Source: Acidobacteriota bacterium (GTDB lineage Bacteria; Acidobacteriota; Terriglobia; Bryobacterales; Bryobacteraceae). From it: a stretch of DNA of 64,000 nucleotides. Positions 8,625 to 15,445 of the stretch are shown here, piece by piece. The stretch is from assembly GCA_016871155.1 (NCBI GenBank), contig VFZO01000005.1, positions 1 through 64,000 on the forward strand, given 5' to 3'. Position 1 is the first letter of the stretch. Each line of letters opens with the position of its first letter. Position numbers and translations under genes: made by a program. The notes beneath the pieces are model-generated. The model was not told the origin of the DNA, made no database searches, and saw only the letters and a program-made list of their open reading frames with translations.

Positions 8625-9355
8625 AAAGCGGCCATGTGTTCGCGGCTCTTCGCCGCGTCACCCAACGCACGATACAAACCGGCCAATCGAAAGTGCGCGG
8701 TCTTTAGCGAAGGGTCCCGGCGGAGCGCTTCCTCCAGCGCCTCCACGGCTTCGCGCTTCCGGCCGCGTTCGGTGTAGAGCCGTCCCAATTCCAGAAACGC
8801 GCGGTTGTCGCCCTCGCACGCGCGCCGCAGGGCCGCGGCGTCCTGCGCCACTTTGCCGTAGTAGTACTGCGCTTCGGCGTTGCGCGGATGGGCTTCGGCA
8901 ATCCTCAGGAGGTGGCGGGTTATGGAGTGCTTCAGGGCCGGTGCGTCCCCAGCCGTTTCACCCAGAAACGGTGTCAGCGCCTCGGAGGGGGGTAACGCCA
9001 GAAGCTCGCGAGCGGAGGCCTCGACCTTCCCGGCCAGATAGAGCGCGACCGCGGCACCGATCCGCTGTTCCCTCTTGCGAAACACGTCTTCAGCGGCGGT
9101 GAAGAGCTTCGCGTTGAGCAGGCGCACTCCTTCGTCGTGGCCGGGCAGACGCCGAAGGCGGATGATCAACTCGGTGTCGATTCGAGCCTGTTCTGCGGCC
9201 GTGTGCGTGGTGCCGTCCACGGCGGCGGCACCGCGCTGAAATTCCGGGTTCGATTGAAACTCCGGAGCGCCTGTGATGGGCTGGCCGGTCAGCAGGACGG
9301 CTTGGCAACACCCGGCGACAAGACACAGCGAGAGTTTACGGGCAACGCGTTCCAC
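8609..9355 (-). CDS. TPR-repeat protein, putative lipoprotein
   Basis: This 248-residue protein starts with a short signal, MERVARKLSLCLVAGC, whose V-A-G-C at residues 13-16 would fit a lipobox, so it is possibly a lipoprotein. Tetratricopeptide units are clear in the C-terminal half (AEAQYYYGKVAQDA, AFLELGRLYTERG, AHFRLAGLYRALGD). The start lies inside the 3' end of the ASPIC/UnbV gene on the same strand (67-base overlap), suggesting the two are co-expressed. In other acidobacterial and related genomes ASPIC and TPR proteins are often neighbours, but I cannot assign a function. A later start is possible. Confidence 0.7.
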   Translation of the reverse strand: MERVARKLSLCLVAGCCQAVLLTGQPITGAPEFQSNPEFQRGAAAVDGTTHTAAEQARIDTELIIRLRRLPGHDEGVRLLNAKLFTAAEDVFRKREQRIGAAVALYLAGKVEASARELLALPPSEALTPFLGETAGDAPALKHSITRHLLRIAEAHPRNAEAQYYYGKVAQDAAALRRACEGDNRAFLELGRLYTERGRKREAVEALEEALRRDPSLKTAHFRLAGLYRALGDAAKSREHMAAFQRAQ

Positions 9356-10881
9356 ACTTCGATTTTGCCATTCGGCCAGCGCACCGTGACGGACTCAACC
9401 GTTTTTTCGCTGCCCAGGCCGAAGTGCAAAACGGTGGAGTGTTGCGAATAGTAGCTGCCGCCGCTCATGACTTCGTCCATTTGACGGCGGCCGCCGGCGC
9501 GCACGGTGACGCGCGCGCCCACCGCGCCACGCACGTCGATGTTGATGAAGTTCCCGCCGGCGCGAGTATTCTTGAGCAGCAACGGAAGGGCGTCCATGTT
9601 CGTGACGAGCGCCTCCGGCCGGCCATCGCCATCCAGATCGCCGACGGCCAAACCTCGTGAGGCCCACTCACCGGCAACGGCGGGCACCTCAGCGAACTTG
9701 CGATTGCCGAGGTTCCTGTAGAACAGTGTTTTCTGCCGGTAGCGATCGCCCATTCCGGCCTTTTCGACCTCTGGATAAACATGTCCGTTCACGATGAGCA
9801 GATCCCGCCAGCCGTCGTCATCGGCATCGACAAACGCGATGCCCCAGCCGAGCAGCAGGTTCGCGCCCAACCCGGCCTGCTGGGCCACGTCGGTGAAGAA
9901 CTTGCCATCCTCGTTCCGGTACAGGTTGACGAGTTCGCCGGAGAAGTTGGTCTTGGCGATGTCAAAAAAACCGTCGTTATCGAAGTCGGCCACGGCCACG
10001 CCCATGCCGGCCTGGGTGTTGCCGTCGCTGTTCAGGGCGACGCCCGCTTCAACGGCCCGCTCGGTGAACGTGCCGTTGCCGCGATTTTCGAAAAGCAGGC
10101 TGGGGGTCTGGTCGCAGGCGACGTAGACGTCGGGCCAGCCATCGTTGTTGTAATCGAAACTCACAACACCCAGGCCGAAGCGCGGACCCGATTTCAGTAT
10201 GCCGGCGCGCGCGGAGACGTCCTCCAGCGTTCCGCCGGGCTGCTGCCGATAGAGGATGTTCCGCCCCATTGGGAGGCCTTTCGGGCCGCAGGCCACAGGA
10301 GTCCCTTTCCAGAAGCATTCGGTCATGGAGCCCGGCTTGGGAGGATTCCGAGCGTCGATCTCCACATAGTTGGAGACGAAGAGATCGAGAAGTCCGTCGC
10401 GGTCGTAATCCAGGAAGGCGCAGCCGGCGCCCCATCTATGCGTGGCCGCAGGCAGGCCCGCCTTCGCCGAAATGTCGACAAAACCCGCCGGCGTGTTGCG
10501 GTATAGGCGGTTGGAGCCGAATTGCGCGATGAATACATCGGGACGACCGTCGCGATCATAGTCCGCGACGCAGACGCCCTGGCCCCAGGCGCCGCCGGCG
10601 GGCCATTCGGCGGCTACGAATTTGCCGCCCGTGTTCCGATAAAGAGCAGGCTGGCGGTCGTTCACCAGCAGGATATCGTTGCGGCCGTCGCCGTCGAAAT
10701 CAAAGATCGCCGCGCCGCTGCCGGTCGTCTCATAGAGGTAGTCCTTCTTCACGGCATTGCCGCCGGAGGGCCCGCGCGTTAGGCCGAATTCCCTGGCGGC
10801 GTCGACGAATTGCGGCCCGGAACCGGTCTGCGCCAGCGCGGCAAATACGGCGGCGCGAAGTAGGAGACCCACGAAATCCAT
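9289..10881 (-). CDS. FG-GAP/VCBS repeat protein with C-terminal ASPIC/UnbV domain
   Basis: This 530-residue secreted protein has a signal-like N-terminus (MDFVGLLLRAAVFAALAQ). It then carries at least six FG-GAP/VCBS calcium-loop repeats (DFDGDGRNDILLVND, DYDRDGRPDVFIA, DYDRDGLLDLFVSNY, DYNNDGWPDVYVA, DFDNDGFFDIAKTN, DLDGDGRPEALVTN), which would fold as a beta-propeller. The last ~70 residues are an ASPIC/UnbV domain (GARVTVRAGG, SYYSQHS, VTVRWPNGK). I set the start at ATG 10881; the open frame upstream is out of homology. Such proteins are thought to act at the cell surface in binding or adhesion. The gene is divergent from the MmcQ gene with only 12 bases between starts. Confidence 0.87.
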   Translation of the reverse strand: MDFVGLLLRAAVFAALAQTGSGPQFVDAAREFGLTRGPSGGNAVKKDYLYETTGSGAAIFDFDGDGRNDILLVNDRQPALYRNTGGKFVAAEWPAGGAWGQGVCVADYDRDGRPDVFIAQFGSNRLYRNTPAGFVDISAKAGLPAATHRWGAGCAFLDYDRDGLLDLFVSNYVEIDARNPPKPGSMTECFWKGTPVACGPKGLPMGRNILYRQQPGGTLEDVSARAGILKSGPRFGLGVVSFDYNNDGWPDVYVACDQTPSLLFENRGNGTFTERAVEAGVALNSDGNTQAGMGVAVADFDNDGFFDIAKTNFSGELVNLYRNEDGKFFTDVAQQAGLGANLLLGWGIAFVDADDDGWRDLLIVNGHVYPEVEKAGMGDRYRQKTLFYRNLGNRKFAEVPAVAGEWASRGLAVGDLDGDGRPEALVTNMDALPLLLKNTRAGGNFINIDVRGAVGARVTVRAGGRRQMDEVMSGGSYYSQHSTVLHFGLGSEKTVESVTVRWPNGKIEVWNALPVNSRCVLSPGVAKPSC

Positions 10882-10887
10882 TATCTT
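10882..10887 (+). promoter_or_regulatory. -10-like hexamer (TATCTT), start-proximal
   Basis: TATCTT ends 6 bases before ATG 10894 with no Shine-Dalgarno sequence in between, which predicts a leaderless transcript. It lies in the 12-base gap between two divergent start codons, so any promoter for the opposite gene must lie inside the coding region of this one. Confidence 0.35.
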
Positions 10888-10893
10888 GTACCT

Positions 10894-11232
10894 ATGACAG
10901 CCGACGGTTTCAAGAGGATCGCACTGAGTCTTCCCGGAGCGGAAGAGGGATCTCACATGGGGGCAGTGGACTTTCGAGTGGGAGGCCGCATCTTTGCCAC
11001 TCTGGCCTCGGTAAAGGAAGGCTACGGCAACCTGATCCTGACGCCCGAGATGCAAAAGGATTTTGTTTCGGAGATGCCGGAGGTTTTTCTGCCCATCGCC
11101 GGCGGATGGGGGCGCATGGGAATGACGCACATCCGGCTCTCGAAGGCGCGAAAGGAAGTGGTGGAAGGCGCATTGAAAGCGGCCTGGCAGTTGCGGGCAG
11201 AGAAGAATAGGCCGAAGAAGAAACGTGCTTGA
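10894..11232 (+). CDS. MmcQ/YjbR family protein
   Basis: This 112-residue protein matches the MmcQ/YjbR (CyaY-like fold) family, sometimes called DNA-binding. Family features are the start FKRIALSLPGAEEGSHMG, the F-x-V-x-G-R-I-F-A-T-L strand near residue 27 and the C-terminal MTHIRLSKARKEVV. The tail is lysine-rich (RPKKKRA). The next gene starts 8 bases before this stop, so the two form a small operon. The biological role is not established for the family. Confidence 0.8.
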   Translation: MTADGFKRIALSLPGAEEGSHMGAVDFRVGGRIFATLASVKEGYGNLILTPEMQKDFVSEMPEVFLPIAGGWGRMGMTHIRLSKARKEVVEGALKAAWQLRAEKNRPKKKRA

Positions 11233-11893
11233 GCCGATCCAGCCAGGCCCGCCCCGCGCCATTCGAAACTTCGCGGGCCGCCAACGGTGGTCGGATCTCA
11301 CCTTTCTGCATTGGCCGGCACCGGTTTCCCGGTTGCAACTGCCGCCGGGCCTGCAGCCGGATCTTTGGGAAGGACAGGCCTATATTGGCCTGGTGCCGTT
11401 CCTGCTCTCGTATCGCGGACTGGGGACGTTTCCGGAAACGAACCTTCGCACCTACGTGATCGATCAGAAGGGCCGCCGGGGAGTTTGGTTCTACTCCTTG
11501 GACGCGGACCGTCTGGCTGCGGTGGCGGGTGCGCGACTCAGCTACGGGCTGCCGTACTTCTGGGCGCGAATGTCGGTGACCCGTTCGAACGGGAGCATCC
11601 ACTACCGGTCCACGAGACGCGCCGGTCCTCAGCGTGAAACGGATATCGTCATCAAGCCCGGAGCCGCCATCGCGAAGCCCACGGACTTTGAGCACTTCCT
11701 GACGGCGCGCTGGCGCCTGTATGCGCTCCGCTTCGGCCGGCTGATCCAGGCCGAGGTGGACCATCCGGCGTGGCCGTTGTACGAAGCGTCCGTTGCCGAA
11801 TGCCGGCAGACGTTTTTAGACGAAGGAAGGCCGCTGATCGCGCACTATTCGCCTGGCGTGGATGTGACGGCCTCCTGGCCGGGGCCGATATAG
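11225..11893 (+). CDS. DUF2071 (YqjF-like) family protein
   Basis: This 222-residue protein fits DUF2071/YqjF, a family related in fold to acetoacetate decarboxylase. Characteristic stretches are the opening RWSDLTFLHWPAP, WEGQAYIGLVPF, FPETNLRTYV and GVWFYSLDAD, and a late block DFEHFLTARWRLY. The GTG start overlaps the MmcQ stop by 8 bases. The function is unknown; the pairing with a MmcQ/YjbR protein suggests an accessory or stress-related pair rather than a metabolic pathway (inference). Confidence 0.8.
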   Translation: MLEPIQPGPPRAIRNFAGRQRWSDLTFLHWPAPVSRLQLPPGLQPDLWEGQAYIGLVPFLLSYRGLGTFPETNLRTYVIDQKGRRGVWFYSLDADRLAAVAGARLSYGLPYFWARMSVTRSNGSIHYRSTRRAGPQRETDIVIKPGAAIAKPTDFEHFLTARWRLYALRFGRLIQAEVDHPAWPLYEASVAECRQTFLDEGRPLIAHYSPGVDVTASWPGPI

Positions 11894-12114: not shown

Positions 12115-13020
12115 CTACGGATTGGAGATCAGATCGCGCCAATCCACTGAAATTCTTCGATCCCCCACTAGGCCGGCGAATGACGCCCGGATCTCGGCCG
12201 CACGCCGGCCGGCCTCGGCGGCCTCCGCCTTCCGGCCGAACCGCTGTAACTGCTCCCGGTACAGTTCGAGGATTGCCGCGACATCGGGATGCTTCAGCCC
12301 CACGGCTGTCTCCATCTCCGCCAGCGCCAAGCGAAGTTGTTCAGCGGCCTGGCGGTGGTCCCTCCCGATTGCATAAAGGTCACCCAGATTCGCCCGCATC
12401 CGGGCTCGCGCCTGCCCCGGCTTTGTCCGCGCGATCACGTCCCGCAAAATCGCGGCGGCTTCCCCGTATTGGCGTTTCGCGCGAAGCACCGCGGCCAAGT
12501 CGCTGGCGATCGAGACTTCCGCCTCCGCGCTCGCCAGAGAGATCGCCCGCCGAATCGACGCCTCGGCCTCCCGAACTCTGTTGCGGACCAACTGCACCTG
12601 TCCCAGACTCTGCCAAACCCGCGGCTCGGCCCGGTAGAACTCCATCGCCTTTGTAAACGCCGCTTCGGCGCGCGCCAGTTCGTGAAGTTCCAAATATACA
12701 CGCCCGAGGTTATTGTGAACTATGCCCCAGGCCGGCGTCCGTGGCTCGCAAAGCGCCAAAGCCGCTTCCAAATTCCTCTTTGCGAGTTGGGGGCGCCCAA
12801 GCTCCATCTCCGCCCGGCCCAGCGCATCGAGCACCGCGATCCGCGACTCCCCGCTGGATTCCGCCAGCACGGGCTGGAGCAGCGCCAGCGCTTCCTGCGC
12901 GCGGCCTTCGCGCAGCAGTTCAGCGCCCTTCGAATACCGTTGTTCAAGGCTCGTCTGGGCGGCCAGCGACATGGCGAGCGCAAGAGGCAGAATGTACAAT
13001 TGAGGGCGGTTAGCAATCAT
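12115..13020 (-). CDS. Secreted TPR-repeat protein
   Basis: This 301-residue protein has a signal peptide (MIANRPQLYILPLALAMSLAAQ). It then carries about six to seven tetratricopeptide repeats of the TPR_12 type (RYSKGAELLREGRAQEAL, VHNNLGRVYLELHELARAE, RANLGDLYAIGRDHRQAA). I placed the start at ATG 13020 because the open frame upstream lacks any signal and runs into the divergent gene. The start codon is 73 bases from the divergent 783-residue sensor-like gene, so they may share a control region. A periplasmic scaffold or protein-protein interaction role is likely; the partner is unknown. Confidence 0.8.
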   Translation of the reverse strand: MIANRPQLYILPLALAMSLAAQTSLEQRYSKGAELLREGRAQEALALLQPVLAESSGESRIAVLDALGRAEMELGRPQLAKRNLEAALALCEPRTPAWGIVHNNLGRVYLELHELARAEAAFTKAMEFYRAEPRVWQSLGQVQLVRNRVREAEASIRRAISLASAEAEVSIASDLAAVLRAKRQYGEAAAILRDVIARTKPGQARARMRANLGDLYAIGRDHRQAAEQLRLALAEMETAVGLKHPDVAAILELYREQLQRFGRKAEAAEAGRRAAEIRASFAGLVGDRRISVDWRDLISNP

Positions 13021-13093
13021 GGGTCGAGTGTGCGCCGGCGCTCTGAAGTAAGTCCTGAGAGCGGCCAAAGCAAGACCATAGGAATTCCTTAGG

Positions 13094-15445
13094 ATGGATA
13101 AGCCAAACAATCCGAACGAGTTAATCGCCTTTGGCCCGTTTCGCCTCGATCCCTCCGCGCGACTCTTGAAACGGGACACCGAGGTGATTCCGCTCGCCCC
13201 GAAGACCTTCGACCTCCTCCTTTTCTTCGCCGGAACAGGCGGCAGGGTGGTCACCAAGAAGGAGTTGATGGACACGCTCTGGAAAGATGTCTTCGTCGAA
13301 GAGTCGAGTCTTCTCTACCAGGTCTCGACCCTCCGAAAGGCCCTCGGCGAAGATGCGGCGAATTGGATCGAAACGGTTCCGAAGATCGGGTACCGGTTTA
13401 CGGCGCCGATCGGGGACCAAGTCTCGATCAAGCCCCCGCCACGCCGCTGGACCCGTCTCGCACTGCTCACCGCCGGACTGGTGTTAGCGGCTGGAGCGTT
13501 CGCCTACCGGGGCATCAGCCAGAGGAACTGGGCGCGCACCGAAGCGATACCCCGGATTGCATCGCTCGCCGAAGAGGGCCGTTTTCCCGCCGCGTTCGCA
13601 CTCGCCCGCAAAATCGAACCGCTGCTCGGCGACGACGCCAAACTCGCCGGCCTCCGCCGCGAAGTTTCCCGGACCGTCAACTTCGACACCGAGCCGTCCG
13701 GCGCCGAAGTCTTCTACCGCGACATCCGCGCGAGTGAAGGCGAGTGGCGGCCACTCGGAACTACGCCGTTGCGCGCCGCTGCCGTTCCGCGCGGCTACTT
13801 CCGGCTAAGGTTCGAAAAGCCGGGCTTCGAACCGACCTTCGCGCTGTTCACGGCAGTGGCCGAAGACATGAACTACCCTCTGTACCCGAAGGAAGAAATT
13901 CCGCCCGGAATGGTTCCGGTTTCACAAGCGGTATTCGACGTTCCCCGCCGCTTCGCGCCACCAGAGCGGGCCCGAGGTGTATCCCGGTTCCTGATCGACC
14001 GCTACGAAGTCACGAACCGGCAGTTCAAAGAGTTCGTCGATGCGGGCGGGTACAAGGACGAGAGCTTCTGGGAACATCCGTTCGCCGCTGGTTGGGAACG
14101 CGCAATGGCGGCCTTCGTCGACACGACCGGGCGCCCCGGTCCCGCCACCTGGATCGCCGGCACGATTCCGCCAGGCCGCGAAGATTTTCCGGTCAGCGGC
14201 GTCAGTTGGTACGAAGCCGCGGCCTACGCCAAGTTCGCGGGCAAGCAGTTGCCGACCGCCTGGCACTGGTATGCGGCCGCGCGTCTGCAAAGCGGGACGT
14301 GGGTGATGCCATCCAGCAACTTCTCCGGCAAAGACGCCGCCCGCGTGGGCGAGTTTCAAGGCGAAGGCCCGTTCGGCACGTTCGACATGGCGGGCAACGT
14401 CAAGGAGTGGGTCTGGAATGAAATCGACGCTGGGAAGCGAATGATCCTTGGAGGCGCTTGGAGCGAACCCGCCCATGCGTTCCTCACAGCCGATGCGCGG
14501 TCTCCCTTCGACCGTTCCAACTTGCACGGATTTCGCTGTGTGCGCTACGCCGCTCCGCCCCCGGCGACCTGGCTCGCTGCCGTTCATCCGGTATTGCGCA
14601 ATCCAGCCGAGAAACCGGCGTCCGCGGAAATATTCGCGGCCTATCGAAACGCGTATGCGTATGACCGCACGGATCTCGCCGCCTCGGTCGATCAGGCCGT
14701 CGAGTCGCTGCCTTACTGGCGCCGTGAGAGAGTCAGCTACACCGCACCTTATGGAAGCGGTCGAATTTCCGCCTTGCTGTTCCTGCCGAAGAACGCCAAG
14801 ACACCGTATCAGACCGTGGTCTACTACCCCGGTGCGGGAGCGATGAATTCCCTGAGTAGCGAGACAACGCAAACGCTCGAAGGATGGGCCCGATTAGAAT
14901 ACCTGCTCCGCGCCGGCCGCGCGGTGATGTATCCGATTTATCAAGGCAGCTATGAGCGGCGGCTGCAAGGCGTAACGACCCCGCTGCGCCGCCGCGAGAT
15001 GATCGTGCAACAGGTTCAGGATATGCGCCGCGCGATCGACTACTTGCAAACGCGTTCCGACATCGCCGCCGATAGCCTGGCGTTTTTCGGCGTCAGCGTG
15101 GGCGCATCGCTCGCACCAATCCCCTTGGCGGTGGAGGATCGGCTCAAAGCCGGCGTACTCGCCGACGGCGGCTTGTACCAGATACCGTCGCCGCCCGAGG
15201 TCGATCCGCTTCACTTCGCGCCGCGCGTCACCGTCCCCGTATTGATGCTGAACGGCAACAACGACTATATTTATCCGCTGGAGACGTCGCAAAAGGCCCT
15301 GCTCCGATTGTTCGCAACACCAGAGTCAAACAAGAAGCATCTGTTGTTCGACGCGGCACACGAAGTGGTGGCGGTGCGCACGCAGGTGATCCGGGAACTG
15401 CTCGACTGGCTCGACCAGCATCAGGGTCCTGTACGGAGCGAGTAG
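13094..15445 (+). CDS. CadC-like wHTH / TM / PEGA-like / FGE-sulfatase / alpha-beta hydrolase fusion
   Basis: This 783-residue protein has an unusual domain chain. Residues 10-106 are an OmpR/CadC-type winged helix (LAPKTFDLLLFF, LMDTLWKDVFVEESSL, IGYRFTAP). Residues 120-138 form one membrane helix. Residues 194-250 resemble a PEGA domain (FDTEPSGAEVFYRD). Residues 290-485 carry the FGE-sulfatase/SUMF1 fold (RYEVTNRQFKEFV, PVSGVSWYEAAAYAKFAG, DMAGNVKEWVWN, GFRCVR). Residues 545-775 are an alpha/beta hydrolase with the nucleophile elbow GVSVG (Ser668), a likely Asp724 and His756. The DNA-binding part would be cytoplasmic and the enzyme-like part periplasmic, giving a one-component membrane sensor. 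The true function is unknown. Confidence 0.85.
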   Translation: MDKPNNPNELIAFGPFRLDPSARLLKRDTEVIPLAPKTFDLLLFFAGTGGRVVTKKELMDTLWKDVFVEESSLLYQVSTLRKALGEDAANWIETVPKIGYRFTAPIGDQVSIKPPPRRWTRLALLTAGLVLAAGAFAYRGISQRNWARTEAIPRIASLAEEGRFPAAFALARKIEPLLGDDAKLAGLRREVSRTVNFDTEPSGAEVFYRDIRASEGEWRPLGTTPLRAAAVPRGYFRLRFEKPGFEPTFALFTAVAEDMNYPLYPKEEIPPGMVPVSQAVFDVPRRFAPPERARGVSRFLIDRYEVTNRQFKEFVDAGGYKDESFWEHPFAAGWERAMAAFVDTTGRPGPATWIAGTIPPGREDFPVSGVSWYEAAAYAKFAGKQLPTAWHWYAAARLQSGTWVMPSSNFSGKDAARVGEFQGEGPFGTFDMAGNVKEWVWNEIDAGKRMILGGAWSEPAHAFLTADARSPFDRSNLHGFRCVRYAAPPPATWLAAVHPVLRNPAEKPASAEIFAAYRNAYAYDRTDLAASVDQAVESLPYWRRERVSYTAPYGSGRISALLFLPKNAKTPYQTVVYYPGAGAMNSLSSETTQTLEGWARLEYLLRAGRAVMYPIYQGSYERRLQGVTTPLRRREMIVQQVQDMRRAIDYLQTRSDIAADSLAFFGVSVGASLAPIPLAVEDRLKAGVLADGGLYQIPSPPEVDPLHFAPRVTVPVLMLNGNNDYIYPLETSQKALLRLFATPESNKKHLLFDAAHEVVAVRTQVIRELLDWLDQHQGPVRSE

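Follow-up and report, generated by a model that had tools for sequence, protein, structure and literature searches.

A winged-helix DNA-binding domain joined to an FGE-fold and α/β-hydrolase head in Acidobacteriota, with a phased 11-bp repeat array at its gene

Here, we describe a 783-residue protein, encoded in a 64,000-nucleotide stretch of an Acidobacteriota genome (family Bryobacteraceae; GenBank assembly GCA_016871155.1, contig VFZO01000005.1, positions 1 to 64,000; hereafter, the window), in which an N-terminal OmpR/CadC-type winged helix is joined to a large head containing an FGE-sulfatase fold and an α/β-hydrolase. Our analysis indicates that, in Acidobacteriota, this head is a module usually coupled to Ser/Thr kinases. 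It has been coupled to winged helices several times independently, with the output domains being exchanged repeatedly. We consider it probable that the protein acts as a membrane one-component regulator, which would bind an array of 11-bp repeats at its own gene, control both that gene and a divergent gene for an exported TPR protein, and use the esterase-like head as its input. The relevant features of the window are as follows.

12115..13020, reverse strand: gene for an exported TPR protein of 301 residues, with a presumed start at 13020 and a signal-peptide-like N-terminus recognized by eye; proposed target, found beside all four orthologues
13050..13093, forward strand: four 11-bp direct repeats (13050-13060, 13061-13071, 13072-13082 and 13083-13093); proposed operator (orthologue alignment, period test)
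13094..15445, forward strand: gene for the 783-residue protein, in the order winged helix, membrane helix, helical segment, PEGA-like region, FGE fold and α/β-hydrolase (Pfam, orthologues)
13121..13408, forward strand: OmpR/CadC-type winged helix, residues ~10-105 (Trans_reg_C, CadC match, dN/dS)
13448..13516, forward strand: predicted single membrane helix, residues ~119-141 (hydropathy)
13517..13678, forward strand: helical segment following the membrane helix, residues ~142-195, common to the kinase versions (alignment to L012; helical in a low-confidence model)
13679..13894, forward strand: PEGA-like region, residues ~196-267 (sub-cut-off Pfam match; relatives)
13895..14560, forward strand: FGE-sulfatase fold domain without paired cysteines, residues ~268-489 (Pfam, profile, cysteine count)
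14561..15442, forward strand: α/β-hydrolase, residues ~490-783 (Pfam, family profile)
15095..15097, forward strand: codon of S668, the putative nucleophile in a G-x-S-x-G motif (kept in 81 of 81 aligned relatives)
15263..15265, forward strand: codon of D724 (81 of 81)
15359..15361, forward strand: codon of H756 (79 of the 80 relatives having a letter there)

Domain architecture and conservation of the 783-residue protein

The gene is a single open frame on the forward strand, running from an ATG at 13094 to a stop codon that ends at 15445; frame, coordinates and length had all been given correctly by an earlier, sequence-only reading of this DNA. The fusion of winged-helix, FGE and hydrolase domains proposed there was borne out by a Pfam search, in which Trans_reg_C (residues 31-102, E 1.4e-15), FGE-sulfatase (residues 288-484, E 3.1e-27) and Abhydrolase_2 (residues 633-770, E 3.6e-5; 24.1 bits, with the cut-off at 23) each scored over the curated cut-off. 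The PEGA-like region named in the same reading fared less evenly: the match in the protein itself (residues 220-249, 17.7 bits) stayed below the cut-off of 20.8, but PEGA passed it in five of the nine head-bearing relatives scanned (L067, L100, L053, L127 and L085). Among the seven Pfam matches of the protein at E ≤ 1e-1 there was neither a receiver domain nor Pkinase, with a winged helix standing in place of the latter. The best match of this winged helix among solved structures was the DNA-binding domain of CadC (5ju7; residues 10-106, 6.3e-13).

Hydropathy analysis scored residues 662-680 at 1.88, compared with 1.57 for the putative membrane helix at ~119-141. We take the former stretch to be the buried nucleophile strand of the hydrolase, and regard the latter as a plausible membrane helix that would place the head outside the cytoplasm. 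With this predicted topology the protein would resemble the ToxR/CadC regulators, in which an OmpR-type winged helix at the N-terminus is followed by a single membrane helix and an outside domain; it differs from them in that the part predicted to lie outside consists of an FGE fold and an α/β-hydrolase.

The same architecture was sought in other Acidobacteriota and found at full length in three genomes, with 89%, 75% and 70% identity to the window gene (G000) in G007, G634 and G635, respectively. Over the head only, the corresponding identities to the window protein were 89%, 78% and 73%. G007 belongs to the same genus as G000, and G634 and G635 to another genus of the same family. Comparison of G000 with G007 yielded a dN/dS of 0.147 over the whole gene; by domain, the FGE part had 0.106, the hydrolase 0.144 and the winged helix 0.115, the last of which is thus under purifying selection. 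These orthologues also dispose of the concern, voiced in the sequence-only reading, that the frame could join two genes through a sequence error. The assembly is fragmented (577 contigs) and has an estimated contamination of 6.54%, which would leave room for a chimera or an assembly artefact; however, the frame is open throughout in three other genomes at 70-89% identity, and dN/dS is at most 0.264 in any domain. Because the same architecture occurs in these three genomes, we exclude the error or chimera explanation and regard an artefact as hardly conceivable.

The FGE fold and the hydrolase of the head

A profile of the FGE family, built from 41 aligned sequences, retrieved formylglycine-generating enzymes first, together with EgtB-type enzymes and PorK, and the relationship to these enzymes is one of fold by sequence profile. 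In true formylglycine-generating enzymes, a pair of cysteines provides the copper ligands. The protein described here contains a sole cysteine, C482, in its 783 residues, and a cysteine pair was found in none of the 81 aligned relatives within the stretch matching residues 449-477, as located by alignment to 6s07 for the copper site. The missing pair argues against an FGE oxidase. No DinB domain appears among the Pfam matches, a further difference from FGE, EgtB and other enzymes of this fold. The FGE assignment of the sequence-only reading therefore holds for the fold, as judged by Pfam and profile, and is not supported for the enzyme. That the domain is nevertheless a genuine formylglycine-generating enzyme, through which the protein would modify sulfatases, could draw on the strong FGE-sulfatase match and on the order in which the profile finds its structures, but the cysteine counts in the protein and its relatives led us to reject this explanation as very improbable. 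The domain is more likely a platform for binding, with no catalytic role.

The hydrolase presents a different picture. The protein contains a G-x-S-x-G elbow and Ser, Asp and His residues in family order, and the corresponding family profile (41 sequences) retrieved MHETase-like, polyester-hydrolase, cutinase, S9-peptidase and acetyl-xylan-esterase structures; in the alignments of the two best structures, the Ser, Asp and His positions coincide with those of the solved α/β-hydrolases. From 86 head-bearing frames collected, five were too partial and 81 were aligned. Across these 81 relatives, S668 and D724 are invariant and H756 is kept in 79 of the 80 that have a letter at this position, confirming as a sequence feature the Ser668-Asp724-His756 triad that the earlier reading had put forward. 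The family includes hydrolase parts with as little as 27% identity to that of the window. Structure models were computed from three-row alignments for the full protein and for the hydrolase part; with mean pLDDT values of 34.8 and 43.5, they were too poor to use. The conservation pattern indicates that the hydrolase is under strong constraint, and it would be consistent with a working esterase-like enzyme. The kinase versions of the family carry the same triad; hydrolysis, if real, is not tied to a DNA output.

The head family and its output domains

The distribution of the head was examined with residues 115-783 as the query against two sets of genomes, 396 taken from the phylum and 257 belonging to the order. 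Matches at E ≤ 1e-40 occurred in 44 of the 396 phylum genomes and 34 of the 257 order genomes, and no second head was detected at this threshold in the window's own genome. The loci fetched were part of the matches listed, some having been picked for unusual frame lengths. Among the 81 aligned frames, the output domain was a kinase in 66, a winged helix alone in eight, a winged helix followed by a kinase in two (L053 and L127) and unreadable at the N-terminus in five (L014, L083, L105, L068 and L071); the ratio of eight to 66 is no census, as odd frames were sought deliberately. The winged helix stands alone in the four orthologues and in L067, L099, L100 and L103. The kinase was called by eye in L101, L080, L048, L056 and L084, with L048 and L084 containing masked or unreadable letters, and the double output of L053 was a call by eye later borne out by Pfam. 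Pfam searches on nine head-bearing proteins agreed with their output classes. The acidobacterial relatives with a kinase in front of FGE and hydrolase domains, which the sequence-only reading had mentioned, are thus the prevailing form in this sample—documented by 66 of 81 sequences and by Pfam on examples.

The two halves of the window protein have separate closest relatives. These Ser/Thr kinase-PEGA-FGE-hydrolase receptors share the same head from residue ~134, with up to 48-49% identity and the same triad, and differ in that their output is a Pkinase domain instead of a winged helix. A near kinase relative, L012, aligns to the window protein over residues 134-781 at 48% identity. The winged helix at residues 9-106, in turn, is 53% identical to that of L018, a regulator in which a similar winged helix precedes PD40 repeats and the outside part is a β-propeller. 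Since the head alignment starts at residue 134 and the winged-helix alignment stops at 106, the boundary of the exchange lies between these positions, at the predicted membrane helix.

On a tree reconstructed for the head, five changes of the winged-helix label are required, each of them forced by starred branches; the tree came from a quick search, making the stars less trustworthy, and it is unrooted, leaving the direction of each change unproven. Placing the ten winged-helix sequences as one clade against the 66 kinase sequences was rejected (AU p 8.6e-5). A tree of 45 winged helices gave a matching result, as the ten head-linked domains did not form one clade (p 1.2e-7). The winged helix of the window protein scores up to 97 bits against those of other regulators, compared with 33-63 bits against the winged helices of the other head-bearing proteins, its three orthologues excepted. 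A single origin of the winged-helix version is rejected on both trees. Because kinases predominate, a kinase is the likelier starting state of the output.

The type of regulator and each of its domains are known; new are the pairing, the repeated exchange of outputs and the 11-bp array at the gene. A survey of transmembrane transcription regulators counted 50,302 of them, with raised numbers in Acidobacteriae (PMC10269533), and its main text, the part of the article covered here, does not contain the word stems FGE, hydrolase or enzym. No report of a fusion of winged helix, PEGA, FGE and hydrolase domains was found among the literature matches listed, as judged by the openings of their abstracts, and a literature search for FGE-sulfatase together with Trans_reg_C returned none. 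FGE-sulfatase, protein kinase and Acidobacteria occur together in an article that, from the portion covered, deals with metacaspases (PMC3501461); the portion covered of another (PMC4522959) contains nothing on a fusion of a winged helix to this head.

The repeat array, the divergent TPR gene and the proposed regulation

The spacer upstream of the gene contains a phased array that ends at the base preceding the start codon at 13094. Alignment of the spacers of the four orthologues revealed two outstanding blocks, AAGTCCYGAG and AATTCCTKAGG, which are direct repeats similar to each other; in three orthologues, the second block abuts the start codon. The end repeats are spaced by 33 bp in G000 and G007 and by 44 bp in G634 and G635—that is, by three or four 11-bp steps, such that the spacing differs between genera by exactly one 11-bp unit. 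Cutting the G000 sequence into 11-mers yields four units with CC at positions 5-6 and AG at positions 9-10 in common. In a test of self-similarity at period 11, none of 500 dinucleotide shuffles scored as well (z 5.6 for G000, 4.7 for G007 and 4.0 for G634), and no other period from 7 to 15 was outstanding in these three genomes. The array of G635 (L121) was not significant, with 227 of 500 shuffles scoring as well, although this locus has retained the outer repeats. The last repeat coincides in part with the likely ribosome-binding site, a possible reason for some of its conservation. In the genome that contains the window, the exact spaced pattern occurred only at its home site, and a two-unit form was found at home and at two sites with one mismatch, a reversed control giving one match. 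No σ70-like promoter was found in 12900-13200.

Arrays of this kind extend beyond the window locus, within limits. Period 11 reached z ≥ 3 in 11 of 45 regions upstream of winged-helix genes, a set picked by similarity to the window's winged helix and including the arrays of three of the four orthologues, as compared with one of 56 kinase versions (Fisher p 0.001; 0.0045 without the window orthologues) and none of 150 random stretches, a random set that reaches up to 9 of 150 at another period (period 9). Period-11 arrays also precede the independent fusions L100 and L127. In a sample unselected by similarity (18 N-terminal winged-helix frames passing the filters in four genomes, G000, G018, G009 and G025), period 11 was found in two frames, one being the window gene, versus three at period 10; among 39 genes with a C-terminal winged helix in the same genomes, two had period 11 and four period 12. 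A general rule that winged-helix genes carry 11-bp arrays was dropped on the results of this sample. We regard the array as real at the window locus and as a feature that certain similar winged helices share, but not as a rule.

PhoB, whose OmpR-type DNA-binding domain recognizes boxes of direct repeats in 11-bp phase, offers a parallel, and both PhoB and the SARP regulators are soluble proteins. SARPs provide a precedent: their DNA-binding part is also of the OmpR type, and the direct repeats to which it binds are set 11 or 22 bp apart (PMC10936776). The array described here shares this domain type and phasing, but differs in having four or five units and in lying at the regulator's own start codon. 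The phased repeats beside the start codon support, indirectly, DNA binding by the winged helix, as does the low dN/dS of this domain.

On the other side of the spacer lies the divergent TPR gene. When positions 1-30000 of the window were compared with three orthologue stretches of 12 to 18 kb, only the gene of the 783-residue protein and the TPR gene had counterparts in all of them; further matches in this comparison were overlapping frames of these same two genes. The TPR match of G635 is split over two frames, and this copy may be broken or misread. The reverse frame on the TPR strand remains open across the repeat array, the start at 13020 being our own placement. Relatives of the TPR protein were detected in 15 of 257 order genomes at E ≤ 1e-12, the four orthologous loci included, and 10 of the 14 other places listed were fetched. 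In three of these ten (L140, L142 and L143), the TPR gene is divergent to a winged-helix-PD40 regulator, and L018, found via its winged helix, provides a fourth such pair. Elsewhere, the divergent neighbour is a PD40 frame whose HTH match is weak and falls short of the cut-off (L146), a TPR-repeat frame (L145) or a frame of the outer-membrane-receptor type (L138), and no winged helix was found by phmmer near the TPR gene in L139, L141, L144 and L147. The exported TPR gene thus recurs, though not invariably, as a partner of winged-helix regulators, here accompanying one with a different head.

Drawing these observations together, the regulator that we consider probable would belong to the ToxR/CadC type: its winged helix would be cytoplasmic, and a single membrane helix would connect it to the large head outside. 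The winged helix would bind the phased array in the spacer between its own gene and the divergent TPR gene, and binding would control both. With the array spanning the site where translation of the regulator begins and also preceding the TPR gene, self-repression and control of the TPR gene would be the simplest consequences of this geometry. Outside, the FGE fold would offer its non-catalytic platform, and the esterase-like hydrolase may set the signal when it meets or turns over either a small ligand of the ester type or a substrate from the envelope. In this account, the architecture, the orthologues, the conserved triad, the absent FGE cysteines, the repeated exchange of outputs, the conserved neighbour and the 11-bp array were observed, and we infer the topology, the binding of DNA, the genes targeted, the catalysis, the ligand and the direction in which control acts.

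Two other explanations draw on the same evidence. The protein could be a membrane-anchored periplasmic esterase whose winged helix only tunes its own gene, with no signal sensed across the membrane, in the way that PutA-type enzymes repress their own genes. The near-invariance of the triad regardless of output domain fits such an enzyme, and so does the array at the start codon, over the likely ribosome-binding site, which would suit self-repression; L105, a 692-residue frame that starts 26 residues before the head match, even appears as a membrane helix and head without an output domain. L105 may, however, be a frameshift, while the recurrent association of this head with kinases argues for an input module and the conserved divergent TPR gene for a target beyond the gene itself, and we therefore regard this enzyme-only function as rather unlikely. 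A pure binding receptor, in which neither the FGE fold nor the hydrolase is catalytic and the triad merely holds a ligand, appears less likely still. Receptors descended from hydrolases do exist elsewhere and the FGE part lacks the cysteine pair, but a full triad kept despite identities down to 27% is more than a binding site would seem to need.

The membrane regulator with an esterase-like input thus remains our preferred explanation, and the head family invites a bolder extension, which we offer tentatively: the head may be a portable catalytic sensor for kinase or DNA outputs, with L053 and L127 as possible bridges, and ligand hydrolysis outside the membrane would, in the DNA-binding form, directly gate a tethered regulator on the array. 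Were this the case, a hydrolase receptor would act on DNA within one polypeptide. The family constitutes a natural domain-swap series, in which the same head comes with a kinase, with a winged helix or with the two together, and makes it possible to study whether two unrelated outputs can be driven by one input module. The 44-bp repeat array provides a simple and immediate binding test, and through the winged-helix version, the ligand of a large family of orphan kinase receptors could be approached with a one-gene reporter.

Repeat arrays and divergent TPR genes

Phased 11-bp direct-repeat arrays were observed upstream of winged-helix (wHTH) receptor genes in L004, L024, L025, L026, L033, L100 and L127 (L-numbers denote loci fetched from other acidobacterial genomes). 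Such arrays could represent a common operator design of one acidobacterial wHTH subfamily; as a general rule, they were not borne out in a sample of wHTH genes not chosen by similarity. We also observed, in several places, a small exported TPR family encoded divergently to membrane-type regulators with differing sensor heads—an observation drawn from the TPR-relative loci L138, L140, L142, L143, L145 and L146. A long frame lies in the window itself:

9289-11301, minus strand: translation resembling, by eye only, an FG-GAP/UnbV-type repeat protein

Cysteine positions in the head

In the alignment of 81 head-bearing relatives, cysteine occupies the position of residue 440 (codon at about 14411-14413 of the window) in 56 sequences and that of C482 in 69; the study protein carries valine at residue 440. 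The two cysteines of the relatives would perhaps form a disulfide pair.

Output composition of three frames

Three open frames carry the head in the following compositions:

L105, 548-2623, minus strand: membrane helix and head, no output domain
L053, 340-3651, minus strand: wHTH, Ser/Thr kinase and FGE head
L127, 1568-5059, plus strand: wHTH, Ser/Thr kinase and FGE head

The L105 frame may reflect a frameshift or else encode a free-standing anchored enzyme. The single open frames of L053 and L127, which unite all three parts, are possible bridges between the winged-helix and kinase outputs.
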